A stretch of 42,313 bases of DNA from a virus: positions 1 to 42,313 of the IMG/VR virus record IMGVR_UViG_3300048583_000273; one strand, 5' to 3'. Under the pieces are notes generated by a model. That model was not told the origin of the DNA. It searched no databases and was given only the letters and a program-made list of their open reading frames with translations. How positions within the stretch are numbered: the first letter of the stretch is position 1; each line of letters opens with the position of its first letter. The translations under genes were made by a program, and so were the position numbers. Shown here in pieces: positions 3,494-31,345 of the stretch.

Positions 3494-3761
3494 AGTAGTA
3501 GTTACATATGATACCGAATCAAAAGAGTTAGTTATGACCGTAGATGGAGAAAGTAAGGGTGATATTGAATCTTTTCACGCTTATTCAGAAGGTGAGGGAG
3601 ATCAAAAATACGGCTATTTTGAAGCTGGATTTAAAACATCTAAAGAGAACGGCGTGAGATACAGAATGTCTGCTCATGGCTCAAAAATAGAACAATCAGA
3701 TCCTCTGGAAGACTTTTTTAGAAGTAAATTAAAAGTAACTTCTGATAAAAATTTTAAATAA
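3486..3761 (+). CDS. Small acidic head-region protein, unknown
   Basis: This is a 91-aa protein whose ATG lies inside the last codons of the portal gene, so the two are probably translationally coupled. It is rich in Glu, Asp and Lys, has no membrane segment, and looks like a small beta-rich domain (MAKVVVTYDTESKELVMTVD at the start). I do not recognise the family. Its place between portal and prohead protease suggests a head-assembly or minor head role, but that is inference. Codon use matches the AT-rich core genes. Its stop codon overlaps the edge of the second copy of the recurrent promoter-like motif. Confidence 0.75.
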   Translation: MAKVVVTYDTESKELVMTVDGESKGDIESFHAYSEGEGDQKYGYFEAGFKTSKENGVRYRMSAHGSKIEQSDPLEDFFRSKLKVTSDKNFK

Positions 3762-9600: not shown

Positions 9601-9866
9601 ATTTAATAGGAAGTGCTAATTGTCAAGCAGAAGTTGATAGATGGTTAATTTTTAATTCTAGATTAAATGATGCTAATTGTCAAGCTGTTATAGCTTCTGA
9701 TAAAACTATTTCTAATACTTCTTTACCATCTGGTTTATTAGCTAGATACGAAATGAACTATGATAGAGGAACTAAAATAATTCAAGATTGGTCTGGTAAT
9801 GGAAGAGATATTCCAATGACTAATATTACACCTTCATTATTTGTTATTAATTCGGGAACCAACTAA
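6654..9866 (+). CDS. Tailspike / beta-helix adhesin with lectin-like C-terminus
   Basis: This 1070-aa virion adhesin probably binds, and may cut, host surface polysaccharide. Residues 1 to ~45 form an N-terminal anchor (GSLFNKTGLIKRNLSGDLNQ) shared with the next gene. Residues ~45-130 are the pectate-lyase-like entry (EGPIILPPGIYTVNSNLTLS). Residues ~130-560 form a right-handed parallel beta-helix. Residues ~582-660 are a small beta module (LPTGTALNTSYYIIDASTDT). From ~760 to the end is a domain resembling concanavalin/LamG-type sandwiches, ending in DWSGNGRDIPMTNITPSLFV. The whole protein aligns along its length with the second half of the next gene. Codon use is AT-rich. ATG 6654 has an AGGT ribosome site. 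No catalytic residues can be assigned, so enzyme activity is not proven. Confidence 0.8.
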   Translation: MSSNSIIPGVQGDGSLFNKTGLIKRNLSGDLNQGLKNPFHYLDVAGLSVNADIADGITNAREALVQADSEGPIILPPGIYTVNSNLTLSNKVTFLPGAKLKPANEVVITLSDGYVANDEQHVFDISAGGTITLTKKIPVYPEHWGARVANPGDPFFDSTLFVQAAINATRNVRFLSGQYICTVTCDPDNGSVLLEGNNTWLTAAASNQFALTLSGEYASGVCRISNITFYGDNPQHGADPGRTKHGLLINVASNVFLDNCWFQFCDLGLVTQLTIITTYSNLVFNQCRVGIYYTARTASTSTLTITTPLGQTFNLPDPLYGVGHPAEQLLIGPRMTLCDIGFVVDSPGNEWSPSRDFKIDKPLFQYCKIGMLLLPDVGPTADSTFINNPWFEGQNVTTSVSFNGVTYQGCDVYISGMQAIQNGGWISSIRARTTANYRLENASWTTSGDSNFDLFDVQDKASVTGELVNAINRIPFRVRAGIPTQYSQGPIFECSPMISKGYTLKDDSKLLFSKSCETGDLPTAFFGGTSLGVINDGPSDANESLGFLATAGNGVLFGSTFVGIPVTQYVAKFAIKAYCPIRTFTVDPGTDIFTSTSHGFVNNMEVRLFTTTTLPTGTALNTSYYIIDASTDTFKLSTTVGGSSINVENIGTGTHTIQQITEFNLRTQNVGSGAFIGTINLPTTTTWKTWCINGITPSSVTDSSFFIGGSTSTVVRAFLIAQMYMVKVDNFADSLLLIDSQQFYSNNYIESSGYIDGPKDKAEAISSSSTPTFDYTDYDGDTKTHTQTSLITPVITMNRPGRHDLLITQDLVGYHEILWPTNMKFRYLPPQPDPLPGKKSLLSWVYDGTHGVADGIKHSYNFVADFDAVPAYGTTPTITFPNAGTILIKIRLNEETPSGSKTRLINPSDSHYPHTNSLAYLDILRSTRVDAITLSSSIDREEWHWLIIRTSSGDGWQALQANLDGILYSVSTASHLTLTTQSYLIGSANCQAEVDRWLIFNSRLNDANCQAVIASDKTISNTSLPSGLLARYEMNYDRGTKIIQDWSGNGRDIPMTNITPSLFVINSGTN

Positions 9867-12800: not shown

Positions 12801-15800
12801 TAACTGGTGAGTTATATCAATGTGCTATTTGGATAGGAACAATTCTTACATCTGATCAAATTGCTTTACTATCTAATCCAAATTTAACGAATTTACTAGC
12901 AGTTAGAGGAACTGGTTATAGTAATGTTTTGAACTATACTAATGAAGATGTTTCAAACGGTATTACAGATGCAAGATCAGCAATTGCTGCTGCCGATGCA
13001 GTAGGTCCAGTATTTTTCCCACCAGGAATTTACGTAATTAATTCAAATATTACTTTAGCTAACAAGCCTACATTTGCACCAGGAGCAAGAATTAAACCAG
13101 ATAGCAGTGTTGTAGTGACTCTATCAAAAGGTTTTGTGTCGGATGAAGATCAATACGTCTTTGATATAACAGCAGGCGGGAGTGTTTCGGTTGTTACTAG
13201 ACGAGCGGTAACTCCTGATAATTTTGGTGCAGCACGGGATGGAGTAACCGACGATTCTGCGGCTGTGACAGCGGCATTAGAGGCAGGTGATTCCAACCAT
13301 ATTAACGTAAAATTCCTCACTGGGGCGTATGTTTGCAGCTCTGTTGCCGATATGTCTGCTGGTAATATGCGAGTGAAGGTAGTTGGCGAGAACGCTGCTC
13401 TAATTCCAGCTTCAACAAATACTTTCGCATTACGCTTTTTTGGGTTACCACCAATCGGGCCGATGGAAATCAGTGGTCTAGCTTTCTGGGGTATAGACCG
13501 TACTAAAGATGGACTAGAAATAGCTTGTGTTACAAGCGCTAAAATAGAGAACTGTGTCTTCACTAATTGTGGAATTGGGTTATTAATCAACGGTACTATT
13601 GATAGCACTTACGATAATCTAAAAATAGATGGTTGCTATGTCGGTATTCATATGACAGTTCGTAATGGAATAGATCACCCAACAGCCATTTACAATGTTA
13701 ATGGTAGAACAGTAACAACTTCAGCATCAAACTATGCTGGTCAACCTACTGAACAGCTATTCAATAGGATTGACATTAAGCACTGTGCTATCGGAATAGT
13801 TGTGGATCAAAAAGGATCGCCGTATGCACGGCAACAATGTTTATTGATGAACAAAGTGGTTATGCATGAAGTTGTAGTTGGGTATGTTCAAAAAGGTGAT
13901 GAGATTCAGTTAGGCAATAACGGCAACCAATGGGTAACCTTCCAAAATCCTTGGTTAGAGAACATTGGCACTACAGCTTTAGTCCATACCAATCAAGGCG
14001 GACCTTATGGAAACATAATAACATATGATGGCGACACCCAAGAGTACTGTGGATTCTCTAATCTTGGTGGCTATTTGTGTGTGAGAAACGGTGGGGCAGC
14101 CAGACTATATGCAGCTAATCGGTCGTTTACATATTTAGATTGTAGCGATTGTGATGTAAACTCATATATTGGCCCAAATGCTACAGTAGTTGAGCATAAC
14201 GGATTGGGAAGAAATGACTACAAACCAGTGTATAGTGACTATACTACACCGTATAATACAACTAATAATGCTGGAGGTACATTAGCTTCGTCGTATTGCT
14301 TGCCGTTTTCTGGTCAGGTTAGCTTAGAGCATGCTGAATCTGGTTCATTGTTGTATTCTAAGACACAGTTTATAGGTGACCAGACGATAAACTCTACTGG
14401 GGAAACTTTTCAGGTTGCTGACGGGGTTTTAGACAGAAAAGAAAGTTTAGGACACATACTTCGACAGTCTACTGGCCCATGGGTAAACGGGATTACTTCA
14501 CAACAAAACCAATTGTATGTTATGAAGTATAGTGTAAGAGCGTACTCTCCAGCGTACACATTTACAGCTAGCGGAGCCACGATCACTGCCACTGGTCACG
14601 ATCTAATAAACGGACAAGAAGTTCAGCTCACAACGATAGGTACACTGCCAACTGGGCTTTCGTTAAATACGTCGTACTACATAGTAGGGGTATCTGGAGA
14701 TACTTTCGGATTGTCTGTAACCGCTGGCGGGTCTGCCATAACCACAACGGGGTCAGGAAGCGGAACTCATACGATTAAACAAAAAAATGGATTCGTTATT
14801 TACAATGCAAATTTAGCTAACGGATTTATTTTTAGAGGTTGGCCCCTAATAACTGACAGGTGGGAAACGTATTTTGCTGTGGGGATGGCTGAATCATTAG
14901 GTTCTGCTGGTGACATTCTTATGATAAGTGGGGTGGCTAATGTTGTAAGGAAGATTGTGCTGGGGCCGATATTCATTATGAAGGTAAATAATGAATCGGA
15001 GGCAATGAGGATTTGTCGTAGTCAAGCCTTTTATGCAACTCAGTACCCGGCCCCACTAATAAACCGTAAAGAGAAAGCTGAGTCTGTAGCCTCGTCAGCC
15101 ACTCCAACACTCGACTACTCTGACTCGGACGGCGATACAAAGACTAGCCTTCTGAACAATGTCACGGCCCCGACGATCACAATGGCACGCCCTGGGCGGC
15201 ATGACTGGGTTGTAACCCAAGATGCAACTGGCAGTCGTGAAATACTGTGGCCGACCAATATGCGATTCCGCTACATGGCTCCTCAGCCAGACCTGACACC
15301 TGGCAAGAAAAGCCTGCTGTCCTGGGTCTATGATGGCACCCACGGAGTAGCCGATGGGGTACAGCACAGCAACAACTACATCGCAGACTTCGATGCCGTA
15401 GGTGCAATTGGTAGTAGTGTATCAATTCCATTCCCGGATGCAGGAACGATTCTGGTTAAGTGTCGTCTAGCTGTTGCTACACCAGTCGCAAAGACAAGAT
15501 TGTTCCAAACGAAAGTCACCAGCCCGGACTCGCATTACCCCTATACAGATGGAGATATTTATTGCGACTGGTTACGAAGCACACGCATAGAATCGATTAC
15601 CCCGAGCGGTAGCGTTAACCGAACGCTGTGGCACTGGGTCATAGTACAAACTGACTCAACTGACGGATGGAACCTAATACAGTCACTAGACGGATCAACA
15701 CTATACACAATTCACTCAGCTACTCACGAAACAATCGGCACTTTGAACTTTGTTCTAGCTCCAGTTAACTGTCAAGCAGAGATTGACAGAGTTCTGATAT

Positions 15801-16018
15801 TCAACTCACGACTAGGTGCTAGCGGGATAGGCAACGCTACAGCTACCACAAAAACAACACCCAACTCCGATATGCCGTCTGGAATGTTAGCCCGATATGA
15901 GCTGAATAATGACCGGGGTGGCAAGCTGATCCAAGACTGGTCGGGCAATGGCAGAGACATCACGTTGACCGATGCCACACCAAGCCTATTTGTAGTCAAC
16001 TCAGGAACAAATTCATAA
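9866..16018 (+). CDS. Giant double tailspike: two fused beta-helix adhesins
   Basis: This 2050-aa protein is two tailspikes in one chain. Unit 1 has a shared anchor (1 to ~35), the entry segment (GPVFFPPGVYAIASNLTF), a beta-helix to ~620 with many ITGNxI/F turns, a beta module (~675-752), and a clear LamG/concanavalin domain (~808-1008; TWHHVAVVINGASSRFYIDG). Unit 2 begins at ~1013 without its own anchor (GYSNVLNYTNEDVSNGITDA). It has a canonical pectate-lyase-3 motif (DGVTDDSAAVTAALEAG), a beta-helix, a beta module (~1565-1640), and a C-terminal domain near-identical in places to the 1070-aa spike. Codons turn GC-rich from ~13,110-13,160, inside unit 2. The ATG overlaps the previous stop. 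The role is probably capsule or lipopolysaccharide binding or depolymerisation. A misassembled joint cannot be excluded from sequence alone. Confidence 0.8.
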   Translation: MQFEPESGLKFDGNLYNNKAITKRNLSNSLNSGYKNVLHYSDSNITDGVRDSRAAIVAADAIGPVFFPPGVYAIASNLTFTNKPTFAPGARIKPSTGVIITLSEGFHATDTQYIFDTSASGSSIIVAKADHLTADNFGATPASSTNLVFFQRALASAISSGISLVVPPDEYTFEGTWGINADNVEIFGSDGRKSILHFNAGYLGFSDCDSPKVDNLTITGSDHDSDGVYFFNGTVNASITNCTIKGFGDDPGGQHGAILFELVNGCTAIGNVLEDNNGNSTCADIIFTTCKDIVCIGNRCVSPNGGGISIDNNPNDLDIRFIVSNNIIKGKSKHGLIIGYGADINRGSITGNVIYDCSVTGMYIQGGSGDSSGEVVITGNMISYCGGSQPVDDAGNCGVFISGNSGTFTGNYISDSGYDTSDLPRGTGLGRSILFGHCKHWTITGNTFRNSANISLDFLSQNTAKNILIANNIILDGGTRLIQVANSTAGATKNFTITGNIFERLNTDGTAISILDIGGQGMELLITNNEFRGIRDDADSAAILWIRENYGRTTITGNTFRNWDRGLDSTYLAGNTNVDWGFGEAVYVDDNLFDTVDIPFNLRTDIYNAVGRSNRFISCSPGYNTAIVPANIVNGILDGYYVDSLPARRCRPGDRLKLLKPNATNSVEYFNTASLPSVSAFTVSSGNIFNHTSHGLRVYDRIKFTSGSIPTPLEIGVDYYVATVPDANTFTISKYFSWDTLTLTSTGSGNYQKQQVSPTWLADTSGLNRANHTGVQQSTTISDFKGTVLNSLGTTTYSQLLGSATSLLNGDSNLDGTGDANDTIGAYNGTWGGSANYGLSPIHTGKSFILDGSNYITQISEAGDFNNNTTIAAWVKRASSSEAGRIASKRTDSNNAWELYINTDGSVSLYDSAANIFSTSAGVIGNNTWHHVAVVINGASSRFYIDGVASGSTFNPTISSLNTPVNWGRLGAFGGLDYLTGELYQCAIWIGTILTSDQIALLSNPNLTNLLAVRGTGYSNVLNYTNEDVSNGITDARSAIAAADAVGPVFFPPGIYVINSNITLANKPTFAPGARIKPDSSVVVTLSKGFVSDEDQYVFDITAGGSVSVVTRRAVTPDNFGAARDGVTDDSAAVTAALEAGDSNHINVKFLTGAYVCSSVADMSAGNMRVKVVGENAALIPASTNTFALRFFGLPPIGPMEISGLAFWGIDRTKDGLEIACVTSAKIENCVFTNCGIGLLINGTIDSTYDNLKIDGCYVGIHMTVRNGIDHPTAIYNVNGRTVTTSASNYAGQPTEQLFNRIDIKHCAIGIVVDQKGSPYARQQCLLMNKVVMHEVVVGYVQKGDEIQLGNNGNQWVTFQNPWLENIGTTALVHTNQGGPYGNIITYDGDTQEYCGFSNLGGYLCVRNGGAARLYAANRSFTYLDCSDCDVNSYIGPNATVVEHNGLGRNDYKPVYSDYTTPYNTTNNAGGTLASSYCLPFSGQVSLEHAESGSLLYSKTQFIGDQTINSTGETFQVADGVLDRKESLGHILRQSTGPWVNGITSQQNQLYVMKYSVRAYSPAYTFTASGATITATGHDLINGQEVQLTTIGTLPTGLSLNTSYYIVGVSGDTFGLSVTAGGSAITTTGSGSGTHTIKQKNGFVIYNANLANGFIFRGWPLITDRWETYFAVGMAESLGSAGDILMISGVANVVRKIVLGPIFIMKVNNESEAMRICRSQAFYATQYPAPLINRKEKAESVASSATPTLDYSDSDGDTKTSLLNNVTAPTITMARPGRHDWVVTQDATGSREILWPTNMRFRYMAPQPDLTPGKKSLLSWVYDGTHGVADGVQHSNNYIADFDAVGAIGSSVSIPFPDAGTILVKCRLAVATPVAKTRLFQTKVTSPDSHYPYTDGDIYCDWLRSTRIESITPSGSVNRTLWHWVIVQTDSTDGWNLIQSLDGSTLYTIHSATHETIGTLNFVLAPVNCQAEIDRVLIFNSRLGASGIGNATATTKTTPNSDMPSGMLARYELNNDRGGKLIQDWSGNGRDITLTDATPSLFVVNSGTNS

Positions 16019-16447: not shown

Positions 16448-16468
16448 AAAAGAGTATTTATATATAGG
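16448..16468 (+). promoter_or_regulatory. Recurrent GAGTATTTAT..ATAG motif, copy 3
   Basis: GAGTATTTAT lies at 16452-16461 and ATAG at 16464-16467, four bases after the preceding TGA and just upstream of the 95-aa gene. The AGGTG at 16466-16470 may also serve as the ribosome site for the ATG at 16475. Confidence 0.55.
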
Positions 16469-17574: not shown

Positions 17575-17805
17575 ATGCCTGCTCAAAATATTGATCAAAT
17601 TAAATTATTATTAGACGAAATTTATGCAGAAGATGTTGCTGAAGATACAGAGTTTCAGACTCAAATTGACGCATTATCAACTAGTGTTGCAGCGGTTACT
17701 GCTGAGCGTGATGCACTACAAGCAGAAAAAGCAACAACCTTGGTTGAGTTGCGGGGTATCTTGGATTCGCTAGCAGCCCGTATTGCCGCACTGGAGTCAG
17801 CGTGA
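17575..17805 (+). CDS. Short coiled-coil protein, fibre region
   Basis: A 76-aa, nearly all-helical protein with heptads from ~20 to the end (FQTQIDALSTSVAAVTAERD, then LVELRGILDSLAARIAALES). It is probably an oligomeric coil, perhaps an assembly or anchor partner for the fibre protein coded right after it. The next GTG start overlaps its stop (GTGA). An AAGGAAG ribosome site precedes the ATG. Codon use changes within the gene: AT-rich to about 17,690, then GC-richer, which is the left edge of a GC-rich block running to about 21.9 kb. Confidence 0.65.
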   Translation: MPAQNIDQIKLLLDEIYAEDVAEDTEFQTQIDALSTSVAAVTAERDALQAEKATTLVELRGILDSLAARIAALESA

Positions 17806-18857
17806 CGTACGCCGACATGCTGCATGAAGCCAATGTATTGGTAACCCGCGTGAGTCAACTGGAGCAAGTCATGCCACCTGTGCAAGACACATATGTGAAC
17901 ATGATGACGGAGGCTGGTGTGTTGGCTGGTCGGGTGAGTGTGTTGGAAAGTGCGTTGGTGCCAAGGCAGCGACAGCTAGTAGGCGGCTGGAGACTCCGGC
18001 AATCGTTTTCGCGTGGATCTTTCGCAATCGACTTCGCAACGATGCGGTGCATGGTGCAGGGGCATGGCCCGAGCAACACAGTTGTTGAGTTTCAGCTGCC
18101 GCAGAGGGGCACTGGTACAAACCCAAGCAACTGGCCGCAGGTGCAACCGAGCACAGCCCCTAGAAGATTTTGGCCAAGTGACACATACGCTAACGGCATT
18201 TGCTTTTGGCAAGGCAAGTTCTGGGTAAGCCCTCGCAAGCATTACGACACAGCACCACCGAGCAATCTTACGCTATTTGCAGCGGACGGCGAAACGCGAG
18301 TGGTAAATTTGCCAAGACAGAAGTTTAGCGGGTTTGTAAAACGCGGTCCTGGATTGGAGCCACTGCTGGGCTCTGGTGGTTATGAGTCTGGGCAGGGATC
18401 AGCGTGTGGCCCGACACTCGGAACGCTAAATGGCCAAGTGTTAATCAACTTCAATTTTGGTGGAAACTGGGATTCGAGAGAAGTCAGAGATCCAGACTAT
18501 AGTACCGTTGGCAACACTGATTCATGGGTAGCGTATGCACCACGAAATGGACAAGGCCGTTGGGGGTGTGACTGGATTAGTGGAGGCGGATTAGTGTTGC
18601 CAGAGGGAATTTGTTATTGGCCACAGTTTGGAACTGGGCAGCTTGACTACGCCTATCAGTCTCGGTGTTTTGCTAGATCATGGAGAAATGCAAAATACGT
18701 ATACGATGCAGAAACACATAGACTGAAACGCACTGAAGCCGTACCTGACGTTCCTGGCTGGTTTGCTGTAGGCGGTCAGGAAGTTGATGCGGCTGGCAGA
18801 GTGTATCTGTCACAAGAGAGCCCAGAGGCTGATGTGATTATAAGAGTGTACGAATAA
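17802..18857 (+). CDS. Fibre/adhesin with coiled-coil anchor (paralogue A)
   Basis: This 351-aa protein has a GTG start overlapping the previous stop. Residues 1 to ~55 form a two-part coiled coil (ADMLHEANVLVTRVSQLEQV, then EAGVLAGRVSVLESAL) shared with the 437-aa protein coded at 21921. The remaining ~300 residues are Gly/Trp/Tyr-rich and likely form a beta-propeller or sandwich tip. Shared landmarks include GGYESGQGSACGPTL and ICYWPQFGTGQLDYAYQ, matching GGYYSSQGASLGPTL and LCYWTQQSVGPRDYALQ in the paralogue. It probably binds host receptors, but no catalytic site is evident. The gene is GC-richer than the core. A homologous N-terminus with a diverged tip is what swapped receptor-binding modules look like. 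Confidence 0.65.
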   Translation: MTYADMLHEANVLVTRVSQLEQVMPPVQDTYVNMMTEAGVLAGRVSVLESALVPRQRQLVGGWRLRQSFSRGSFAIDFATMRCMVQGHGPSNTVVEFQLPQRGTGTNPSNWPQVQPSTAPRRFWPSDTYANGICFWQGKFWVSPRKHYDTAPPSNLTLFAADGETRVVNLPRQKFSGFVKRGPGLEPLLGSGGYESGQGSACGPTLGTLNGQVLINFNFGGNWDSREVRDPDYSTVGNTDSWVAYAPRNGQGRWGCDWISGGGLVLPEGICYWPQFGTGQLDYAYQSRCFARSWRNAKYVYDAETHRLKRTEAVPDVPGWFAVGGQEVDAAGRVYLSQESPEADVIIRVYE

Positions 18858-18924
18858 CGGTTTGCAATTAGTGAGTTTATATGCCTTACACAATACGAAC
18901 ACTATTCTCACAGGACCGGCACGC

Positions 18925-21432
18925 ATGAGACAACGCTCACTAGCCAGTACATTATATCGGCCATTGGCAAAATGGCTGAACGAACCAATAGAAGACGCTA
19001 TCGATCCTGATACGCTTGCATTTATTGCACGCATGGACGTTGCCCCAACTGCCGAACAAACAGACGCCTATAACTTTTTTGTAGTTAAGGCAAAAGAAAT
19101 CGGGATATGGAACTACATTACTGACTGTGGTTTTCTGTGTGGTCACGATGCTCAATCAAGTAGGCTGGGCGTTAAGGATGTCATTAACCTGACAAATGTT
19201 GGTGCTGGTCCGACGCACTATCAAGGTTATGGTTTTCGTGGTAATGGTACAAATCAGGCGTTAGATACTGGCTACGTATTTCCGTCTGAGCTGCGGAACA
19301 ACGCTTCGTTAGGTGTTTACAGTGCTGAGGAGTTACCAAACGGTGCAGCAGGTGATATTGGAAACACAAACTCCACCATCGTTGTAAGCCTAGTAGATGG
19401 CGTTCAGGCGTGTTTTGGTCGGATAAATTCAGCTATAGCTACAGCTGGTTTTACCCAAACTAATAGCATGGGCTTTTACGCTATTAGTCGCCAAAACGCT
19501 ACCAACCAAGTGAGAGTGTATAAGCGTGGTGTAGCCGGTCCCGTTTCAGGCGTTTCCGAAGCACCAGATTCGACCTACACAATTTGGGTTTGCGGAAGAA
19601 ATCGTGCTGCTCCTGTATACTCAACTCAAATGCTTAGTTACTGGCACATTGGCACAGGTATTCCTGCATGGATGCAAGCAGCGTACTCGGATCTTGTGGA
19701 ACTGACTGTTACAAGACTAGCAGCGTCACATGCGGTAATGCCAGTGCTGACACCAGAAACTAGAAGCATGTACCGATATTTCATTTCGCTGACACGTTCA
19801 GATAGGTATATCGTTGGCGGATTTGACAACAGGCATTGGCCGCTCGCGCTTCCATCGGCTCCCGATCCAGGTATAGCAGATGAGACCACTCCGCAGATGC
19901 TCGCTAACTTTCAGTCTATTACGGGAGAGCTTCCTGCGATCCTGACAGTGGACTGGGTTGACCCTTTAGGACGACCAACGGAAGCAGCCGAACAGCTTGC
20001 CGACATAAAGGCACATTATGCGGCAGGTGGACTAATATCCATTCAGCAGCACCCTGGAAACCCCGTTACTGGCACGTTTCAACAAACTCCATCAAGGCCC
20101 GGAAACACAGGCAATCAATACGACAGGACTGGCGATCCTGTAGTAGCGTGCTTGGCTGGTGGATCGAAGCGTACCGAATTTCTCGCTTGGGTAGATCGCA
20201 TCATCGCATTCCTAAATTCGTGCGTGACTGACGGCGGCCAGAAAATTCCCATCATGGCTAAGTGGATGCACGAAATCGACTTACAGTTTTTTTGGTGGTC
20301 TGATGCAGTGCCAGCCAACACAGTTCAGCTATGGAAAGATTTTGTTGACCGAATAAAGGCAGCCGGAGTTGATAACGTTATATTTGATTTTCAGAGAGAC
20401 TTTAAGGCAACGCCAAGCGTTACCTGGTGGCCTGGCGACGAGTATGCGGATATTCAAAGCGGATCAAGCTACGACGACGAAACGACTACCCCGGTTGGAC
20501 AGTCGCGTATGTCCGACGAGTTAGCCGCATGCCTCACGGTTTCTCGAAGAAAACCGAGATGGTTTGCGGAATTGGGATATAGACAAGGCCAAAGTGTTTC
20601 GGATTTATGGAGCACAAAAACAGGCTTTTATGTCCGTGACAACTATCCGGATATAAGCGGTTTCAATATCTGGAGGCCGCCTTGGGGACCGCTAGACGGC
20701 GATTCAAACAACGCATCGTTGGTTGCGATGGTGGCTGATTCGTCGTGTATCACTCGCAGCCGAGTTTCGGATTGTTATACGCCACCAAGCGTGTCAACTC
20801 CATCGTCTCCAGTTGATTGGTGGTTTGCCGATTCAATAATGGATTTTGATTTTCAAAATTCGAGATTCCGTTACAACGGAGTTAGTTACAGCACTTTCGT
20901 CGATTTAGTTACTGCTGGCTTCGCAAGTGAGTTAAGTGGCATCACTCGTATAACACTTGGAAGCTTACTGCCATCTTCTTATACGATACTCGCGAGGGGC
21001 GTGACACACACAGTTACAACCGTGGCAGGAACAGCGCAATACATAGCTACACTCGACGATGGTAATGATGCAGTACCTTTGGATGAAGCTGTGATACTTA
21101 CTAGGCAGACAATCCTTGGACAAGATCGTTTGGGTGCAAGTGTTTGGTCCGGTGGAACGACCTACCCAACTGATTCTAGTTTAATGGCAACAAGCACGGC
21201 TGAGACTGGCGGTAATACAGTGACTTACGCATCGCGTATTGCGCTCAATGATTTTGCTACGTCATTTAACGGAGCAGCGGCTATCACACTTAGTACTGTG
21301 CCAATGCCAGTAGTTACGCAGCTAGTCGTTGGCAATCGCGAAGATGGGTTGCGACCTTGGGGTGGAACTGTGCATCGTATAGCAATACTCAGCACAGTAC
21401 TCAGCAATGCGCAATTGACCACAATATGGTAA
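18925..21432 (+). CDS. Tail-associated GH26-like glycoside hydrolase with lectin-like domains
   Basis: This 835-aa virion enzyme candidate probably cuts a mannose-containing or similar beta-glycan on the host surface. Residues ~40-280 look like a concanavalin/LamG-like binding domain (GYGFRGNGTNQALDTGYVFP). Residues ~300-600 match glycoside hydrolase family 26: LISIQQHPGNP, then KWMHEIDLQFFWW with Glu450 as likely acid/base, VDRIKAAGVDNVIFDFQRDF, and RWFAELGYR with Glu549 as likely nucleophile. The order and ~100-residue gap fit GH26. A second beta-sandwich fills ~620-835. ATG 18925 with AGGA is preferred to a TTG at 18862, which lacks a ribosome site. The gene is clearly GC-richer than the phage core, so probably imported. 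Substrate is inferred from family only. Confidence 0.7.
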   Translation: MRQRSLASTLYRPLAKWLNEPIEDAIDPDTLAFIARMDVAPTAEQTDAYNFFVVKAKEIGIWNYITDCGFLCGHDAQSSRLGVKDVINLTNVGAGPTHYQGYGFRGNGTNQALDTGYVFPSELRNNASLGVYSAEELPNGAAGDIGNTNSTIVVSLVDGVQACFGRINSAIATAGFTQTNSMGFYAISRQNATNQVRVYKRGVAGPVSGVSEAPDSTYTIWVCGRNRAAPVYSTQMLSYWHIGTGIPAWMQAAYSDLVELTVTRLAASHAVMPVLTPETRSMYRYFISLTRSDRYIVGGFDNRHWPLALPSAPDPGIADETTPQMLANFQSITGELPAILTVDWVDPLGRPTEAAEQLADIKAHYAAGGLISIQQHPGNPVTGTFQQTPSRPGNTGNQYDRTGDPVVACLAGGSKRTEFLAWVDRIIAFLNSCVTDGGQKIPIMAKWMHEIDLQFFWWSDAVPANTVQLWKDFVDRIKAAGVDNVIFDFQRDFKATPSVTWWPGDEYADIQSGSSYDDETTTPVGQSRMSDELAACLTVSRRKPRWFAELGYRQGQSVSDLWSTKTGFYVRDNYPDISGFNIWRPPWGPLDGDSNNASLVAMVADSSCITRSRVSDCYTPPSVSTPSSPVDWWFADSIMDFDFQNSRFRYNGVSYSTFVDLVTAGFASELSGITRITLGSLLPSSYTILARGVTHTVTTVAGTAQYIATLDDGNDAVPLDEAVILTRQTILGQDRLGASVWSGGTTYPTDSSLMATSTAETGGNTVTYASRIALNDFATSFNGAAAITLSTVPMPVVTQLVVGNREDGLRPWGGTVHRIAILSTVLSNAQLTTIW

Positions 21433-21474
21433 TCATTATTCGTCATAGGTACATTAAATCGATAAAGGTAACAC

Positions 21475-21876
21475 ATGGCAACTCAAGCAATTAGGTTTTT
21501 AGGCCCTCCAGGTGAAACGATTACACTTGATGTGTTCACTTTAGCTAGTGATACGGCTGAACAGTCTGGTTTGGTATGCACTGAAGCGACCAATCGCAAG
21601 GGGCTTTATACCACAGCCAACTTTACCGATACGCTAGCCGGACGCTTTCTGATTATCGGAAAGGTGTCAGGGATAGCAATCGGTAACGATTTTGTTGATA
21701 TACTAAACGAAGATGGAACGTACGATAGCCATGCATTAACTACAAATGATGCAATTGCAGCAATACAATCTACAGCAGCAGTAATTGCTCTATCAAACGT
21801 GATAAAAAGCGGTGAAGCCTTCACGGCTAGCGGGCCGAATGACGTAGACAAAGTTGTTACGTTTACTAGGAATTAG
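21475..21876 (+). CDS. Small beta-sandwich virion protein, fibre region
   Basis: A 133-aa protein with a short beta domain (RKGLYTTANFTDTLAGRFLI and VSGIAIGNDFVDILNEDGTY). It then has an Ala/Ile helix and a polar C-terminus. The pattern (turn GLY-T, LAG-F/Y, acidic DG-Y) is common in small structural proteins coded among phage tail fibre genes; its exact job is unknown. The ribosome site is AAAGG. It has intermediate base composition, lying in the GC-richer block. It probably decorates or connects the neighbouring adhesins. Confidence 0.55.
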   Translation: MATQAIRFLGPPGETITLDVFTLASDTAEQSGLVCTEATNRKGLYTTANFTDTLAGRFLIIGKVSGIAIGNDFVDILNEDGTYDSHALTTNDAIAAIQSTAAVIALSNVIKSGEAFTASGPNDVDKVVTFTRN

Positions 21877-21920
21877 TATATGTTTAGCACGATAAAAATA
21901 CTAACAATACTGGAGAAAAT

Positions 21921-23234
21921 GTGAACTATTCAGATTTATTACATGAAGTTAATATATTATCATCTCGTTTGAGTCAATTAGAACAAGATATACCATATAT
22001 AATTAATACATATCAAAGCATGCTTGTAGAGGCTAATATGTTGGTTAGTAGAGTAGCTGTGTTAGAGAGTGCAACTCCACCTGTTGTTCAACCAATCACT
22101 AAGCAAACGCTAACACCTACTAATTTACGAGCTGTTGGTGGATGGCAAATGCCAAGTAATGCTGGACTAGGCTTCGTCAGTGGCGGGCTGTATGTTGAGC
22201 GAGATGGACGACAGTTATCGTTTTTTACTTCTGGTAAAGAGACTAACTGTACTATCCACAAGATGACTTGTAGCCTAGATGTAATGGGACAAGTTGGTAC
22301 AAACCAAAAGCAATGGCCAAAGGCCGTTGCTAATTGGTCTGTGCTAGGGTTTCATCGAGACGCCAGCACTACACGAAACAATTCTGCTGGTGCTATGCGG
22401 GTGCAAGGGATTAGCAGGCCAAATCCTGGAGGTCCATTGCTGTGCAGTTCATGGGATCGATATGCGGTGTTTCCAGATGCTATGAACGGACCTTACTTGT
22501 CTTGGATAGCTGATGGCGGAAGTCCGATTAGTGTTGTGCAAACACCAAGTCATGTTAATTCTCGGGTGATGTTTGGCCGTGGATTCTGCAAGATTCCACA
22601 ATGGTTTGCTGACCAGTATTTGCAAGGACGGACGTTTGGGGTTGGTCACGGTGGTTACTACAGTAGCCAAGGAGCTAGCCTTGGCCCAACGCTATACGTT
22701 TGTGACACACCAGAGCCAGGGGCAACGCTGATTCGCAATGCTCAGGTCTTGCTCGCGTTTAATGCATGGGTCGGTGACCCGCGAAATGCTGAACGCCGCT
22801 TCGGTGACTACAGTAACGGACTGTGGGCACCTGAACCAGATGCAAACGGCGTTGGATACTGGGTGGACGATGTAGACGGTGGGCCTGTTTGGATCGATAC
22901 ACCAACGCTAACGGGGCTTTGTTACTGGACTCAACAATCAGTTGGGCCGCGTGACTACGCATTGCAAAACGAGACGTTTACCTACACGACCAAAACCAGA
23001 CTGTATGTATACTCGCCAGAGACAATCGCTGCTGTCGCATCGGGACAGCTTGTGCACAATCAAGCTAGAGCACAGTACTACGAGTGGCCTAATCCGTTTG
23101 ATAATTCGTTGTATACGCACGTTTGGCCATGCGGTGCGGCGTGGGATGGCGAGTATTTGTACGTGGCTTACAAAAACGCCGGTTCCGATATGTACGACAC
23201 GCAACCAGTCATTATGGCTTATGAGGTGGTTTAA
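21921..23234 (+). CDS. Fibre/adhesin with coiled-coil anchor (paralogue B)
   Basis: A 437-aa relative of the protein coded at 17802. GTG start with GGAG 6 nt upstream. The first ~52 residues are the same type of coil (SDLLHEVNILSSRLSQLEQD, then EANMLVSRVAVLES), here in AT-rich codons. From about 22,090 the DNA turns GC-richer and the tip is different but shares GGYYSSQGASLGPTL and CYWTQQSVGPRDYALQ with paralogue A. The tip is rich in Gly, Trp and Tyr and ends in a strand-rich repeat (LYVAYKNAGSDMYDTQPVIM). A receptor-binding role is likely. The compositional change after the anchor is a sign of module exchange. The stop overlaps the next ATG. Confidence 0.65.
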   Translation: MNYSDLLHEVNILSSRLSQLEQDIPYIINTYQSMLVEANMLVSRVAVLESATPPVVQPITKQTLTPTNLRAVGGWQMPSNAGLGFVSGGLYVERDGRQLSFFTSGKETNCTIHKMTCSLDVMGQVGTNQKQWPKAVANWSVLGFHRDASTTRNNSAGAMRVQGISRPNPGGPLLCSSWDRYAVFPDAMNGPYLSWIADGGSPISVVQTPSHVNSRVMFGRGFCKIPQWFADQYLQGRTFGVGHGGYYSSQGASLGPTLYVCDTPEPGATLIRNAQVLLAFNAWVGDPRNAERRFGDYSNGLWAPEPDANGVGYWVDDVDGGPVWIDTPTLTGLCYWTQQSVGPRDYALQNETFTYTTKTRLYVYSPETIAAVASGQLVHNQARAQYYEWPNPFDNSLYTHVWPCGAAWDGEYLYVAYKNAGSDMYDTQPVIMAYEVV

Positions 23235-24751
23235 TGCCTATAGCATATGTAAAAGCAACAACTGCTAACAACAACGGAACGAACAGCGTAACCGTGTCTT
23301 TGACAAGTGTAACGTCTGGATCTTTTCTGTTATTAAGCATAATCTCAGACACCGCTACGACTGGTCCAGGAGGCTCGTGGATTTTATTAGATTCCAATAC
23401 GACGGTACCATCACTACGGGTGTCAACGTATTATCAATTTGCAACATCCAGTGGAACCTATTCAGCAACTATTACAAAGACAGATAGTTTTGTCATCATA
23501 GCAAATATTGCCGAATTTACTGGTGTTGACACTGCTAGTCCAATTCAGGCCACAACAGACATCGCAGGGTTTGGAACCTCTGTATCAACCTCTAGTCTTT
23601 CTGCCACTGCGGGCGGAGTAAGAGTAGCGGCGATTGGGTACATATCGGTAGGGCCAACTTCATATCCAAGCGGGTACACGTTATACGCTTCTCAAGGTAT
23701 TGTGCAAAGAAACTTTTACCTGTACCGCAAAGCAGCGGCATCGGACGGAAGTGAGACGTTAACAGCAAATGCAACCTCAGTAAACAATATCACAATTGTC
23801 TATTCTACATTAAGACCCGCTCCTGAAACTGGAAGTAGTCACTCGCTAACTGCTACTGGAATAGATACAGCGACTCCAACAGTTGATAGCTCAGCGATTA
23901 CTCAAATACATTCGCTGACAGGTACTGGTATTTTTACAGGAATACCAACTATTAGTTCGCTATCTGTAAGTCAAATACACGTTATAATAGCAAGTGATAT
24001 TAACACTGCTTTACCAATAGTTGGATTACCATCCCTTACGCAATCACATTTACTGATAGCTACAGGTATAGTAACTAATACAACTACAATTAGTAACCCA
24101 TTAATATCTCAAAATCATGTAATATCAACTAATAATTTAACTTCTGGAATACCTACTCTTTCTCAGATATCAATAATAACAGATGGTAATGATTCATTAA
24201 TAGCTAATGATATTGATATTGGTCAACCATCTTTAACAAGTTCTACAATATCTCAAAGCCATATTTTAAGTGGTGTTAATTTAGATTTAAATCAGGCAGA
24301 TGTAAATACTGGTAATTTATCACAAAATAATATTCTTAATCCAAGTAATATTTCTGTTAATAATCCATCTATCGAAAATTCTGATTTAAAACAGAATCAT
24401 TTATTATCAGTAAATAATATTAGTTTAAATAATCCAACGATAGATCAGACTACTTTATCAACATCTTCTTTATTAATACCTTTAAACATAAATACTACTA
24501 GTACGGTTATAGATCTTGTTAATATTTCTCAAAAACACAATTTTACTGCTACAAATATTTCAAGCGGAGCAGTACAGGTATCTATTGTTAATATTGACGA
24601 ATATAATATATTATATGGTTTAAATATTAGTACTTCAACACCAACAATTGGTAATACTATAGTAAATCCTTTTACAATAATAAGACCATCAAAAAATGTT
24701 CCAAAAGGTTTAATTAAAGATAATTATCCAATTGGAAAAGTTATTGTTTAA
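23234..24751 (+). CDS. Fibre with twelve 23-residue repeats
   Basis: This 505-aa protein starts on the overlap with the previous stop. Residues 1-200 form a beta-rich domain (VTVSLTSVTSGSFLLLSI ... TVPSLRVSTYYQFATSSG ... FVIIANIAEFTGVDT) resembling small beta-sandwich receptor-binding folds. Residues 203-477 are twelve copies of a 23-residue unit of the form H-x-L-x4-I-x4-P-x-I-x4-I-x-Q (one unit of 25, last one partial). This kind of repeat is known in phage tail proteins and probably forms a beta-solenoid shaft. The DNA starts GC-richer and becomes AT-rich along the repeats, so the front domain looks exchanged. The C-terminal 28 residues are a basic, non-repeated tail. Confidence 0.7.
   Translation: MPIAYVKATTANNNGTNSVTVSLTSVTSGSFLLLSIISDTATTGPGGSWILLDSNTTVPSLRVSTYYQFATSSGTYSATITKTDSFVIIANIAEFTGVDTASPIQATTDIAGFGTSVSTSSLSATAGGVRVAAIGYISVGPTSYPSGYTLYASQGIVQRNFYLYRKAAASDGSETLTANATSVNNITIVYSTLRPAPETGSSHSLTATGIDTATPTVDSSAITQIHSLTGTGIFTGIPTISSLSVSQIHVIIASDINTALPIVGLPSLTQSHLLIATGIVTNTTTISNPLISQNHVISTNNLTSGIPTLSQISIITDGNDSLIANDIDIGQPSLTSSTISQSHILSGVNLDLNQADVNTGNLSQNNILNPSNISVNNPSIENSDLKQNHLLSVNNISLNNPTIDQTTLSTSSLLIPLNINTTSTVIDLVNISQKHNFTATNISSGAVQVSIVNIDEYNILYGLNISTSTPTIGNTIVNPFTIIRPSKNVPKGLIKDNYPIGKVIV
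23840..24664 (+). repeat. Twelve-unit 23-residue protein repeat array
   Basis: Eleven full units (ten of 69 nt, the fifth of 75 nt) and one partial unit, in frame. The conserved positions are His1, Leu3, Ile8, Pro13, Ile15, Ile20, Gln22. At DNA level the units are diverged, so this is an old array, not a recent copy-number expansion. Confidence 0.8.
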
Positions 24752-26345: not shown

Positions 26346-27047
26346 ATGACAATAATTTTCAAAGAAAGTTCAAAAAAAATTGCAGAAAAGATTCAAAAAC
26401 TTATTTTGCAACAGTTTTATTTACAGCTTCGTAAAGTATCAGATCTTATAAAACAGGATATTATTAAAGAAAATTTAAATATATGGAAACAAACACCAAC
26501 TTATCAGTCTTTAATATCTGGTGATTTAACACACGAATTTGGTATTCCTCAGGGAACAGCTAAAGGTAGAGTGGATTATATTCTTAATGAGTTTGGAAAA
26601 TCAATTTCAATAATACCAAAAATTAAAACTAGAAAAAGAGCTGGAGCATACGTTATGTTAGATATTAACGTATTTTCTAAGAATATTAATCCAGCAATCT
26701 TTGATTCTCCAGAGGCTAACGTAAAAACGGGCAAGAAGGCCTCTAATGACCTTTCTGGCGACTTTGGGTCGTTTGGAGCTATAGAGATCAGTAAAGAGCT
26801 TCCGTGGCTTAGATGGCTATTATATGAGGGTAATAAGTATATCGTTTATGGATACGAATATCAACCCATTGTTGCTGCTAATAGTAGATCAGGAAAGGGG
26901 TTGATGATAAAGTCGGATTCTAGTTGGAAAGTTCCCGCTCAATTCTCTGGAACAAAAAATTCTCATTGGATTATTCGGGCTTTAAATGATAATAGAAATT
27001 TTCTTATCAGTGAATATGGAAGAATTATAGAGAAACACTTAAAGTAA
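26346..27047 (+). CDS. Neck / tail-joining protein (HK97 gp10-like role)
   Basis: A 233-aa protein with a helical N-terminus (KIAEKIQKLILQQFYLQLRK) and a beta-rich C-terminal half (LPWLRWLLYEGNKYIVYGYE, then FSGTKNSHWIIRALNDNRN). The fold order and place between head-closure and tail-completion genes fit neck proteins of the gp10 type that join head and tail. Its stop overlaps the next ATG. A short stretch near 26,700-26,770 is less AT-biased than its surroundings. Confidence 0.6.
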   Translation: MTIIFKESSKKIAEKIQKLILQQFYLQLRKVSDLIKQDIIKENLNIWKQTPTYQSLISGDLTHEFGIPQGTAKGRVDYILNEFGKSISIIPKIKTRKRAGAYVMLDINVFSKNINPAIFDSPEANVKTGKKASNDLSGDFGSFGAIEISKELPWLRWLLYEGNKYIVYGYEYQPIVAANSRSGKGLMIKSDSSWKVPAQFSGTKNSHWIIRALNDNRNFLISEYGRIIEKHLK

Positions 27048-27862
27048 TGTTAAAATCATTTGATCTAAATAAACCAAATTATTCTAAAGTTTTATCTGAG
27101 AGTATTATTTCTTGGTTAGATTATTCTTTCTATTCTGATGGTGGTTATATTAATACTTCCGGAAATCTTAAACAGGTAGCTTTACCAGGTTATTCTGGTG
27201 GTACTATTTGGGGATCTAATAGAAAAAATTGGGTTTGGGAACAGGATAATATTAATATTTCTCAAAGTGGTTACACAATTAATTACAGAGATGGTTTAGT
27301 TATATTTAATTCTGTTCAATCTGGAGTTTATGCTACTTATTCTGTTAAGAATATTTTTATTTTTGATGGTAAAGATAATCCCTTTTTTCGTGGTGAAAGT
27401 GCTCTTTTAGATGTTTATGATGGTGTTTATAGAGAAAATTCTATTCAATTACCATGTATAGCACTTGAGTTAGGAAGTTCAAATTCTACTCCATATGCTC
27501 TTGGAACTTATGAAAGAAATGTTAGACAAGATATTATTTTAAATATTTTTCATAAAAATCCAGAGATTGTTGAGAAAATATCTGATATACTTTATAACCA
27601 AGTAGATACAGGTGTTCCACTTTTTGATTTCTTTAGAGCTTTTAATAGTGGCGATTTTCCCCTTAATTTTAATGGAACATTAATTAATCGCTCTGGAACA
27701 TATAATAATTTAATAAATCTTCATCCGTTTACAGCAGCTAGAAATAGGGCTTGTTATATTAAAGAAACCGAAATAGAATCTGTTTCTAAATTAGATAATA
27801 ATCTTTATCATGGTACTGTAAGATTTGAAACAGAAGCTGAATTATCTATGGGTATTTATTAA
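27047..27862 (+). CDS. Tail completion / terminator protein
   Basis: A 271-aa protein, largely beta-strand, with ALLDVYDGVYRENSIQLPCI and a mid-region ending RNVRQDIILNIFHKNPEIVE that reads like tail terminator proteins, which cap the tail tube and bind the head. Position (after neck, before the tail tube) supports this, but its length is above the usual ~130-170 aa, so an extra N-terminal domain is likely. The stop is followed six bases later by a degenerate copy of the promoter-like motif. Confidence 0.6.
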   Translation: MLKSFDLNKPNYSKVLSESIISWLDYSFYSDGGYINTSGNLKQVALPGYSGGTIWGSNRKNWVWEQDNINISQSGYTINYRDGLVIFNSVQSGVYATYSVKNIFIFDGKDNPFFRGESALLDVYDGVYRENSIQLPCIALELGSSNSTPYALGTYERNVRQDIILNIFHKNPEIVEKISDILYNQVDTGVPLFDFFRAFNSGDFPLNFNGTLINRSGTYNNLINLHPFTAARNRACYIKETEIESVSKLDNNLYHGTVRFETEAELSMGIY

Positions 27863-27868
27863 AACAAA

Positions 27869-27880
27869 GAGTATATATAT
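27869..27880 (+). promoter_or_regulatory. Degenerate recurrent motif, copy 5
   Basis: GAGTATATAT at 27869-27878 resembles GAGTATTTAT but lies right against the ATG at 27881. There is no room for a separate ribosome site unless AAAGAG serves. It is the weakest of the six copies. Confidence 0.3.
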
Positions 27881-28105
27881 ATGAATATAAATTTTCCATT
27901 AACATATCCAGTTATAAAACCTATTAAAGAGTCAGTTTTTATTTCACGATCTACTACCGGTGGTGATATCGTTTTACTTACGTTTACTACTCAGCCAATA
28001 GATCAAATAGTAGCTATTAGTGCTGATGCAACTTTTACTGTGTTAGCAGATGGATCTGGTACTATTTTATACCAATGGCAAGATTATAACTGGGCAGCAA
28101 CCTAA
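27881..28105 (+). CDS. Small protein ending in the first half of an Ig-like domain
   Basis: A 74-aa protein whose first ~45 residues are a polar, basic lead-in. Its last ~28 residues read like the first half of an Ig-like sandwich: SADATFTVLADGSGTILYQW, then QDYNWAAT at the stop. The expected second half is missing here but appears as the C-terminus of the next gene. The stop overlaps the next ATG (TAATG). It may be the stump of a once longer Ig-domain tail protein. Alone, it could still act as a short adaptor. Confidence 0.55.
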   Translation: MNINFPLTYPVIKPIKESVFISRSTTGGDIVLLTFTTQPIDQIVAISADATFTVLADGSGTILYQWQDYNWAAT

Positions 28106-30192
28106 TGGCTATTACAATTACAAATCAGCAGATTCCATTACTACAACGTAAGGCCGCAACTGGAACCGGTACTGCAACTGTTGCTGGTACATTCACTGGA
28201 TCACCAACATCTATCAGTGCAACTATTCATCGCGTTGCCGATGATGCTGTTATTGTTGCCTCTCAGGTGATTGACGCTGCACCAACTGGCGGAGCTTACA
28301 GTGCTACAGTGGCCGGTATACCAGAATCCCTAGCCGATACCTATTATGTCGCGGTGTCGGCTGCGGGAACAGGTGACACGGCCAACACAAAAGGCGTATG
28401 GCAATTCCAGGTAGGACGCTGGCTAGCGGTGTTTGGACAGAGCAACGGAGCAGGACTTTTCGGTGGTGCCTCAGGTGCTCCAGCAGCTAGCGCCGGAACG
28501 TATTATCGGAGTTCAATCTACGAAGCGGTCCCAAATGCAAACGGTGTTCGCGAACTACTTAATGGTCTAGTCACACGGTTCGGCGTACCGTGGGGAATCG
28601 TCCAATATTGCCAACCAGCAACATCTATGTCCAATTGGCAGCCAGGCGTATCGTTTTACATAGACTTTGTGGCACGCATAACGACTGGCCCAAATGATTT
28701 TGAATGTCTGCAATGGGTTCATGGAGAGTCGGCAGCGGTAGATAGTGCAACAAATATGGATAATAACCCTGTGGGATATGCTGCTGCACTAGATTCAGTA
28801 CATGGCAGTTTAGCAACAGTAGTGGGCAGAACTAAAGCTCAATGTCCATTGATGGTTAGTGGGTTATCAAGAGAACTATCGACAACCTACAGCGATATAT
28901 CTTGGCATAGAGCACAGCAATGTTCAATATTCGCTGCTAATGAATATGACAATATTTACTATTCCCATTCGATGCTTGATGCGACAATGCAAGACACGAT
29001 CCATTGGGATAGCATTGCAGCCGGTCAGTTTGGCAAACGTGCTGCCCTTGCATGGGCTGAAGTGTTCGGACTGGAAACCCTATCCGCAAAATGGGAAATG
29101 CTTGCAGCTAATGCGGTTTCTGAGTCAACAACGCGAGTAGTTATGTCAGTGACTAGGGCTGGAGACTTTACCCCAAGTTCTGGAATAACAGGCTTTGAAG
29201 TCTCAAGCAACGGAATAGATTGGATACCCGCAACTGGCGTAAAGCTCTCCGCAACCCAGATAGAGCTAACGCATGCAAGTTTGCAATATAAAAATCGGGC
29301 GGTACGTTTTGGCTATGGGCTACAGCCCAATATATCGGCCATGCCAAAAGAGACCGATTTTGATACGCCACCGGTTCCGTCTATGTTTTGGACTGTATCA
29401 GAAGGCGGAACCAATCCAATCATCCAAATTACTCCGATGATGCGTGGTGTACACGGTAGCGGCGGATTTGTTATAAGTTGGGAGACTTCACCAGTAGCAA
29501 CTGTGCCTGGAAAAGAAATACTATTTATAGCAAGAGTGCCAAACCCTGTAGTAAATAGTGCAACCTCAAATGGAGAGGCTGTCGAGCTTTTAACTACTTC
29601 ACCTTTGGCTTCAGGCAATGTTGGTCGTCTATATCGAATAGTTACCAACGATACGAAAGCGGATTTAGTTTTGACATTTGCTTCCCAGACATTCGATCAG
29701 GGGATGCTAATACCGTACATCCTCCATGCTGGAACCTTAAATGTTGCAAGCTCGTATGGAGCAGACAACGCAGGTAGTACCTCGACTATTGACGCTAATA
29801 CACTAGCCAATAGCATGTTCGTAGCTATAGGATGGACTATTTACCCTGCCTCTGTTCCACCGATTACCGTAGAAACATCTGGAATAAGACAGAAATATCG
29901 ATCAGTTGGAACAGGCATGGACGGTGCCGAATGGGGAACAGCACCTACAACAAACGCTAACAATGAAATGTCGGCAGTAGTAGACGGGGTGCAGTCTCGA
30001 ATAATAGTGTTTGTATTTGATCCTCCGACTCCGGGCAGTTGGGGATGGCGAGATATTCCAGGGGAAACTACAACTACGCTAGTGATAGAAAATATAACTT
30101 ATGCCGATAATGGAAAACGTGTTCGCTGTATTGCAACAGATAATAACGGATCATTAAACAGCAACCAAGTGCAATTGACTTTAAATCTATAA
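28105..30192 (+). CDS. Virion carbohydrate esterase, SGNH/SASA type
   Basis: This 695-aa protein starts on the overlap with the previous stop. Residues 1 to ~105 form a beta domain. Residues ~106-330 form an SGNH hydrolase of the sialate O-acetylesterase (SASA) type: GQSN with Ser113, HGES at 206-209, and DTIH with Asp297 and His300. It would remove acetyl groups from surface glycans. Residues ~330-420 are the beta domain common behind such esterases (ITGFEVSSNGIDWIPATGV), followed by another beta region. The last ~50 residues (SWGWRDIPGETTTTLVIENI ... RVRCIATDNNGSLNSNQVQL) are the second half of an Ig domain. DNA is GC-richer than the neighbours except at this end. This looks like enzyme cargo inserted into a native tail gene. 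Confidence 0.75.
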   Translation: MAITITNQQIPLLQRKAATGTGTATVAGTFTGSPTSISATIHRVADDAVIVASQVIDAAPTGGAYSATVAGIPESLADTYYVAVSAAGTGDTANTKGVWQFQVGRWLAVFGQSNGAGLFGGASGAPAASAGTYYRSSIYEAVPNANGVRELLNGLVTRFGVPWGIVQYCQPATSMSNWQPGVSFYIDFVARITTGPNDFECLQWVHGESAAVDSATNMDNNPVGYAAALDSVHGSLATVVGRTKAQCPLMVSGLSRELSTTYSDISWHRAQQCSIFAANEYDNIYYSHSMLDATMQDTIHWDSIAAGQFGKRAALAWAEVFGLETLSAKWEMLAANAVSESTTRVVMSVTRAGDFTPSSGITGFEVSSNGIDWIPATGVKLSATQIELTHASLQYKNRAVRFGYGLQPNISAMPKETDFDTPPVPSMFWTVSEGGTNPIIQITPMMRGVHGSGGFVISWETSPVATVPGKEILFIARVPNPVVNSATSNGEAVELLTTSPLASGNVGRLYRIVTNDTKADLVLTFASQTFDQGMLIPYILHAGTLNVASSYGADNAGSTSTIDANTLANSMFVAIGWTIYPASVPPITVETSGIRQKYRSVGTGMDGAEWGTAPTTNANNEMSAVVDGVQSRIIVFVFDPPTPGSWGWRDIPGETTTTLVIENITYADNGKRVRCIATDNNGSLNSNQVQLTLNL

Positions 30193-30270: not shown

Positions 30271-30296
30271 TTGACAAAAAGAGTATTTATATATAG
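30271..30296 (+). promoter_or_regulatory. Recurrent GAGTATTTAT..ATAG motif, copy 6
   Basis: GAGTATTTAT lies at 30281-30290 and ATAG at 30293-30296, with TTGACA just upstream (30271-30276). It stands in the 130-nt gap before the major tail protein gene. A T4-late-like TATAAATA on the + strand (30237-30244) lies upstream in the same AT-rich gap. The ATG at 30323 has its own GGAG ribosome site. Confidence 0.6.
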
Positions 30297-30322: not shown

Positions 30323-31345
30323 ATGGCTTTAAATCAAAATAAAAGACTATTCTGGGCAGTAGAAGCTATAGGCTTTGCTCCAGATGGTAGCTCAACTTTC
30401 GTTCCCGCTCATGGTGTTCAATCTTTAGGTTCTAATTTAACTTTCAATCTTACTGAAGTTTTTGAACTTGGGCAAATTTCAATTTATGATAACGTAGAAG
30501 ATACTCCTGATATTGAGTTTACTATTGAAAAACTTATTGATGGTTATCCTTTAATTTATCACTTAGCTACTCCCAATGCTGCTTCACCATCTCTTGTAGG
30601 TAGATCTACAGAGCGCTGTATTATGGCTCTTTCTACTTTCGGAGATACACAAAACTCTGCTAGTGGTACTCCTAATACCCAAATGACGGCTTCTGGATTA
30701 TATGTAAGCTCAATGGCTTATAGTTTTCCAGCAGAAGATAATGCTACGGAATCTATTACTCTTGTTGGTAACAATAAAGTTTGGGCTTCTGGATCATTTA
30801 CTTTCACTGGTGGTTTTAATAATAATGATACGCCAGCTTCTGGTATTATGCGTAGACAACACGTTGTGATGGGTACAACTAGTGGTGTTGCTTCAGTATG
30901 GCCTAAGAATATTCCTGGTATTAATGCTAATGGTTATAATCCACAAAGAGCCGATGGAACTTCTTATTCAGCTAGAATTCAAAACGTATCAATTTCAACA
31001 GACCTTGGTAGAGAACAGCTTGTAGAATTAGGTCGTAGAAACCCATTCTTTAGATATGCTACTTTCCCTGTTGAAGTAACCTGTGATATTGAAGTTCTTT
31101 CTGTAGATGGTGATTTTGTAAGTGCTACAGAAGCCGGTATTTACGGTAATGGTAACAACTTATCTAATGAGCAAATTATTCTTAGAAGTGTTTGGGGCGA
31201 TGTTTGGGATCTTGGTAACAAGAATAAATTATCAAGTGTTTCTTCAAACATGTCAACAGATGGCAGTAATCAGGTTGATACTTTTAGTTTTAGTAACTTT
31301 AATGATTTAACTATATTATCTGAAAGCGATCCTGCTGGATTATAA
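30323..31345 (+). CDS. Major tail protein (tube)
   Basis: This 340-aa protein is the likely tail tube subunit. It is beta-rich with ISIYDNVEDTPDIEFTIEKL, DGYPLIYHLAT and ESITLVGNNKVWASGSFTFT, features I associate with long-tailed phage tube proteins. It stands alone behind a strong promoter-like motif and a good ribosome site (GGAG), as expected for a highly expressed gene, and lies upstream of tail assembly and tape measure genes. It is too short for a contractile sheath. Codons are AT-rich but include more C-ending ones, consistent with high expression. Confidence 0.75.
   Translation: MALNQNKRLFWAVEAIGFAPDGSSTFVPAHGVQSLGSNLTFNLTEVFELGQISIYDNVEDTPDIEFTIEKLIDGYPLIYHLATPNAASPSLVGRSTERCIMALSTFGDTQNSASGTPNTQMTASGLYVSSMAYSFPAEDNATESITLVGNNKVWASGSFTFTGGFNNNDTPASGIMRRQHVVMGTTSGVASVWPKNIPGINANGYNPQRADGTSYSARIQNVSISTDLGREQLVELGRRNPFFRYATFPVEVTCDIEVLSVDGDFVSATEAGIYGNGNNLSNEQIILRSVWGDVWDLGNKNKLSSVSSNMSTDGSNQVDTFSFSNFNDLTILSESDPAGL

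Follow-up and report, generated by a model that had tools for sequence, protein, structure and literature searches.

Phage tail genes are known mosaics, in which the joints usually fall between domains. Such mosaicism is familiar in phages, as are Ig-like decorations and fibres with SGNH domains. In the literature covered, which is incomplete, we found no description of a joint placed inside a domain in such a way that a small protein and an enzyme share one Ig. Two consecutive genes of an uncultivated tailed phage (IMG/VR record IMGVR_UViG_3300048583_000273, of which the whole stretch of 42,313 nucleotides was analysed and is here called the window) suggest such an arrangement, and a first-pass annotation had proposed that an enzyme module landed inside a native Ig domain and that both halves survive as separate proteins. 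Hence, we ask whether the two gene products are parts of one domain, what the DNA between them encodes, and how the arrangement might have arisen and be translated. The principal features, all on the forward strand, are these:

27881..28105, + strand: 74-aa open reading frame (ORF), with an N-terminal part of about 32 aa followed by the first Ig-like half (strands A-C; residues 33-70 correspond to profile positions 5-42)
28103..28107, + strand: TAATG, in which the stop of the 74-aa ORF overlaps the start of the 695-aa ORF (read from the sequence)
28105..30192, + strand: 695-aa ORF, an esterase with the second Ig-like half fused in frame
28090..30036 (approximate), + strand: GC-rich cassette, probably inserted, comprising an N-terminal beta region, the SGNH/SASA esterase and a C-terminal beta region (placed by GC segmentation, border support and PF03629)
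30037..30192, + strand: second Ig-like half (strands C'-G), at the C-terminus of the esterase ORF (residues 645-693 correspond to profile positions 44-92)

One Ig-like domain across two reading frames

The end of the 74-aa gene had been read as the first half of an Ig-like domain and the end of the 695-aa gene as the second, the two giving one domain when joined, and an alignment with phage Ig-like domains had been suggested as a check. With the joined halves as query, tblastn recovered uninterrupted phage Ig domains (from Vibrio phages, Synechococcus phages and others), seven of which were aligned into a profile of 95 positions. In a small search against this profile, the 74-aa protein alone matched positions 5-42 (E 1.7e-14, 42 bits) and the C-terminus of the 695-aa protein alone matched positions 44-92 (E 9.3e-13, 37 bits), such that the halves are complementary, with zero overlap and almost no gap. 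Joined, they scored 92 bits over positions 5-92, exceeding the sum of the separate scores. When the search comprised 20,387 stop-to-stop segments from six frames of all loci and the window, the two halves were the only significant partial Ig matches (E 9e-11 and 4.8e-9), with nothing further below E = 0.8. The profile was built via the joined query, but each half matches alone, and PHROG 3995 (tail protein), which was made by others, agrees: the joined halves match its positions 210-289 of 294 at E 1.1e-8, spanning the joint, compared with 0.0063 for the 695-aa protein alone. Pfam I-set and Ig_3 were matched below cut-off only. The earlier reading of the two gene ends is thereby upheld, and in profile searches neither half appeared as a complete, different domain.

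The cut falls after YQWQDYN, following strand C, and the second half restarts at GSWGWRDIPGETTTTL, in strand C'; strand names are assigned by analogy with I-set domains. Signature residues of the Ig fold are kept on both sides, with YQW in strand C and D-x-G-x-x-x-R-C towards strand F. The match thus extends over the whole domain, which is distributed over two ORFs in different frames and not carried on a single chain. Profile comparison confirms that the C-termini of the 74-aa and 695-aa proteins constitute one predicted Ig-like domain with a single cut, which lies in the C-C' loop. As for the survival of both halves as separate proteins, both coding halves are indeed intact, although the second is the C-terminal tail of the esterase and not a protein of its own. 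Since the record comes from an uncultivated virus as a metagenomic contig, a chimeric assembly or a chance resemblance, with no true interrupted domain, might be invoked; this is highly improbable given the match statistics of the Ig profile and PHROG 3995, and for a chimera to arise two independent joints would have had to fall in the same loop of a single domain, with one of the two in frame.

The esterase module

Residues 160-316 of the 695-aa protein match PF03629 (SASA carbohydrate esterase) with E 2e-6 and 28 bits, against a cut-off of 24.8. The protein contains the catalytic motifs GQSN (111-114), HGES (206-209) and DTIH (297-300), of which GQSN and DTIH supply the catalytic serine and the D-x-x-H expected of SASA/SGNH esterases. 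Family match and motifs assign the inserted module to the SGNH/SASA carbohydrate esterases, with predicted activity; profile searches matched it to no nuclease family. Regions judged to be beta-rich by sequence alone flank the module, and a structure of the 695-aa protein predicted from the single sequence had a mean pLDDT of 32, too low for use. A resemblance between the C-terminal beta region and a 505-aa gene (23234-24751) was considered and dismissed, being inside the shuffled range.

Neither relatives of the esterase at normal thresholds nor a source of the cassette were found in IMG/VR, phages, plasmids and GTDB contigs; a search of 50 relative records, run without a positive control, found no esterase, and a sequence search of solved structures gave no match. 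The single, weak match to a phage fibre was the tail fibre of Pseudomonas phage KLEP17-4, which has a similar SGNH part (19% identity over 108 residues). Phages are known to carry receptor-binding enzymes with SGNH domains, including Klebsiella prophage fibres and gp63.1 of coliphage G7C (PMC13123978). The present module resembles them in having an SGNH/SASA module with GQSN and D-x-x-H in a region of phage structural genes, and differs in being very divergent and without a close relative, in lying between tail genes, in ending in half an Ig, and in having an activity predicted from sequence. Because phage fibres with SGNH domains have been shown to be esterases (PMC13123978), the enzyme is predicted probably to remove acetyl groups from host surface polysaccharide during adsorption.

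Base composition and borders of the insert

Maximum likelihood segmentation with two change points and GC as the only input placed a foreign segment at 28,090-30,079, with 47% GC, where the left flank has 28% and the right flank 34%, in agreement with the earlier remark that the DNA between the halves is GC-richer than both flanks. Support for the left border extends over 27,941-28,154, and for the right border, best placed at 30,065, over 30,044-30,140. The borders drawn from homology, at approximately 28,090 and 30,037, coincide with these. GC3 is 0.16 and 0.25 in the Ig halves, 0.35 in the insert and 0.10-0.24 in phage core genes; the halves are closer to the core genes than the insert is, and pooled they differ from the insert with p = 0.008. 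A direct repeat present at both joints (ATGGCRAGAT, starting positions 28075 and 30045) was rejected as a trace of the event, since repeats of equal length occurred in 36 of 298 random window pairs, which is not significant; the two copies also occupy non-homologous positions in the Ig alignment.

Base composition also varies elsewhere in the window. Among AT-rich genes there are GC-rich blocks at 13000-16000 and 17800-24000 (45-53% compared to about 28%), which look like exchanged receptor-binding cassettes; the second includes a GH26-like protein (18862-21432), and the genes at 17802 and 21921 have a common coiled-coil-like N-terminus and different C-terminal parts. A tail-spike-like N-terminal domain is common to the 1070-aa and 2050-aa genes (6654-16018), and the latter seems to contain two copies of that domain, separated by a LamG domain, in the manner of a fusion of two spikes.

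The left joint and its translation

The two ORFs overlap by one base within TAATG, as the first-pass annotation had noted in giving the intruder an ATG of its own. Further TAATG overlaps occur at five places in this genome (5103, 9866, 16973, 23234 and 27047), and coupled termination-reinitiation is therefore the ordinary reading. No strong ribosome-binding site was seen upstream of the internal ATG. The 695-aa frame lies at -1 relative to the 74-aa frame; a stop at 28,087 closes it upstream and it is open from 28,090. Two chains, produced through coupled reinitiation, are most likely and represent the simplest reading of the joint.

The main rival is a single polypeptide with the esterase nested in the C-C' loop, the two frames being due to ribosomal frameshifting or to a one-base sequencing or assembly error that masks the nested protein. 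Nested domains are tolerated in loops, altering one base within 28,087-28,105 would be enough to merge the frames, and both Ig halves are well preserved. We nevertheless regard this as unlikely, for the second frame starts normally on TAATG, like five other gene pairs here, and the Ig halves and insert differ in composition. Nor was a slippery heptamer (X-XXY-YYZ) found by eye in the overlap, that is, in the frame of the 74-aa ORF across 28,088-28,105, as an Ig extension made by programmed frameshifting would lead one to expect.

A sequence resembling a promoter bears on which of the two genes is resident:

27866..27884, + strand: promoter-like element upstream of the Ig gene, AAAGAGTATTTATATATAG
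30278..30296, + strand: promoter-like element upstream of the tail-tube-like gene, an exact copy of AAAGAGTATTTATATATAG

Other copies lie at 1475-1493 and 16449-16467, with weaker ones at 3759 and 25142. Allowing up to 3 mismatches, four copies were observed where 0.06 were expected, all on the forward strand and in AT-rich gaps upstream of four genes, two of which are the Ig gene and the tail-tube-like gene. The element is absent from all other loci compared and is possibly a phage-specific promoter. Since it precedes the Ig gene and none precedes the esterase, the Ig gene looks like the resident unit and the esterase like a passenger.

Neighbouring genes and an insertion hotspot

Two genes flank the locus:

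27047..27862, + strand: left neighbour, a conserved 271-aa gene of the tail region; homologues lie directly upstream of the tail-tube-like gene (95 loci)
30323..31345, + strand: tail-tube-like gene (340 aa), right neighbour; relatives occur in IMG/VR and in five metagenome-assembled genome (MAG) contigs

We infer the tail-tube-like nature of the 340-aa gene from its position before the tape measure at 33229. The flanking genes are conserved across a large family of uncultivated phages, and in 86 of 95 loci (a few of which are the same contig twice) they are adjacent, 16-114 bp apart. Cargo lies between them in the other nine, which identifies the gap as an insertion hotspot. It consists of LAGLIDADG endonucleases in L027, L030, L034, L066 and, on the other strand, L032; an apparently truncated relative of these in L035; unassigned ORFs in L043 and L054; and a glycosyltransferase in L070. 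Cargo also takes a different form in L070 (1918-4644), where a long PTPTVT repeat and additional sequence lengthen the 271-aa homologue to 908 aa. One tail-region relative (L106; CP070695.1, 41977-55083) belongs to a contig labelled as a Candidatus Heimdallarchaeota archaeon chromosome (MAG), a label that may reflect a binning or assembly mix-up.

An Ig gene is absent between the flanking genes in all relatives among the 95 loci, and 50 whole relative records held no Ig matching PHROG 3995. Searches of IMG/VR for relatives of the Ig halves gave pattern matches, none of which was confirmed. No relative was found in which the two proteins had never been contiguous, an observation that would have spoken against a split; the relatives are without both. 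An uninterrupted relative of the Ig gene was likewise not found, in searches that may leave out records very near the window. The nearest relatives have about 45-51% identity in the capsid or tube protein (46% for the best via the capsid), and the upstream gene led to none closer.

Origin of the split domain

Insertion into an existing Ig gene explains these observations in the fewest steps, and we consider it likely that a cassette was inserted in the C-C' loop codons of an Ig gene at the hotspot, which now specifies two chains. The ancestor would have been a small phage gene, encoding a short N-terminal part and one Ig-like domain, at the hotspot between conserved tail genes. A foreign esterase cassette would then have entered the codons of the C-C' loop. 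With the right joint in frame, strands C'-G would form the end of the esterase; on the left, the first Ig half would meet a stop overlapping the cassette's own ATG. One message would thus yield two chains by termination and reinitiation, the first comprising the N-terminal part with strands A-C and the second the esterase with C'-G. What stands of the original proposal is one domain interrupted by an esterase of different composition; the intact ancestor it supposed was not recovered. As neither an uninterrupted relative nor an Ig gene at this spot was seen in relatives, the module could have come already nested. The lack of a source for the cassette, of a strong ribosome-binding site upstream of the internal ATG and of a significant repeat at the joints also counts against the insertion scenario.

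A further possibility has the same anatomy as this insertion scenario and bears on function only. Insertion may have broken the domain, leaving a non-functional 74-aa peptide and a half-Ig that is a disordered tail of the esterase. Relatives live without the Ig gene, and some tail tubes can do without their Ig-like domains (PMC8718954); set against this, both halves are open and have kept their signature residues, which suggests recent insertion or selection. We rate such decay as a serious possibility that falls a little short of even.

Relation to known systems and significance

Homing endonucleases have made phage genes in pieces, as in nrdA/mobE of Aeh1, gene 60/mobA of T4 and gene 43 of phage 25, and for Aeh1 NrdA and the phage 25 polymerase reassembly has been shown, the split proteins being functional (PMC2988022). 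As in those cases, foreign DNA would here have divided a single phage coding region between two polypeptides, and relatives of this phage carry LAGLIDADG genes at the same spot. Unlike them, the intruder is an esterase without the endonuclease that defines those systems, and the cut falls inside a single small Ig domain; the intruder also runs in frame into the second half, whereas in Aeh1 and phage 25 neither half is joined to the intruding gene. Ig-like domains occur on phage tail and head proteins, for instance T5 pb6 and lambda gpV (PMC8718954). In these and in PHROG 3995 the same kind of domain normally makes up the C-terminal end of its structural protein, and in Vibrio phage JSF10 an Ig-like domain is found on a protein next to the tail terminator. 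In T5 pb6 and lambda gpV it is one intact C-terminal domain, whereas here an enzyme cassette divides it between two ORFs. Mosaicism in which a cassette breaks a domain apart is, in this sense, a variant of phage 'genes in pieces'.

The split Ig might serve as a two-chain docking joint, in which a virion-anchored 74-aa chain would take up the half-Ig of the esterase by strand complementation, although we regard this as rather doubtful. If so, an adsorption enzyme would be placed on the particle by cutting a domain and not by ordinary fusion, an unusual form of docking. Were the halves to pair, one recombination event would have turned an Ig domain into a two-part docking joint, and the result would be a natural split-Ig pair, comparable in concept to engineered split-domain tags. 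Should they fail to pair, the locus would provide a clear snapshot of domain loss through cassette insertion at a hotspot where relatives carry homing endonucleases.
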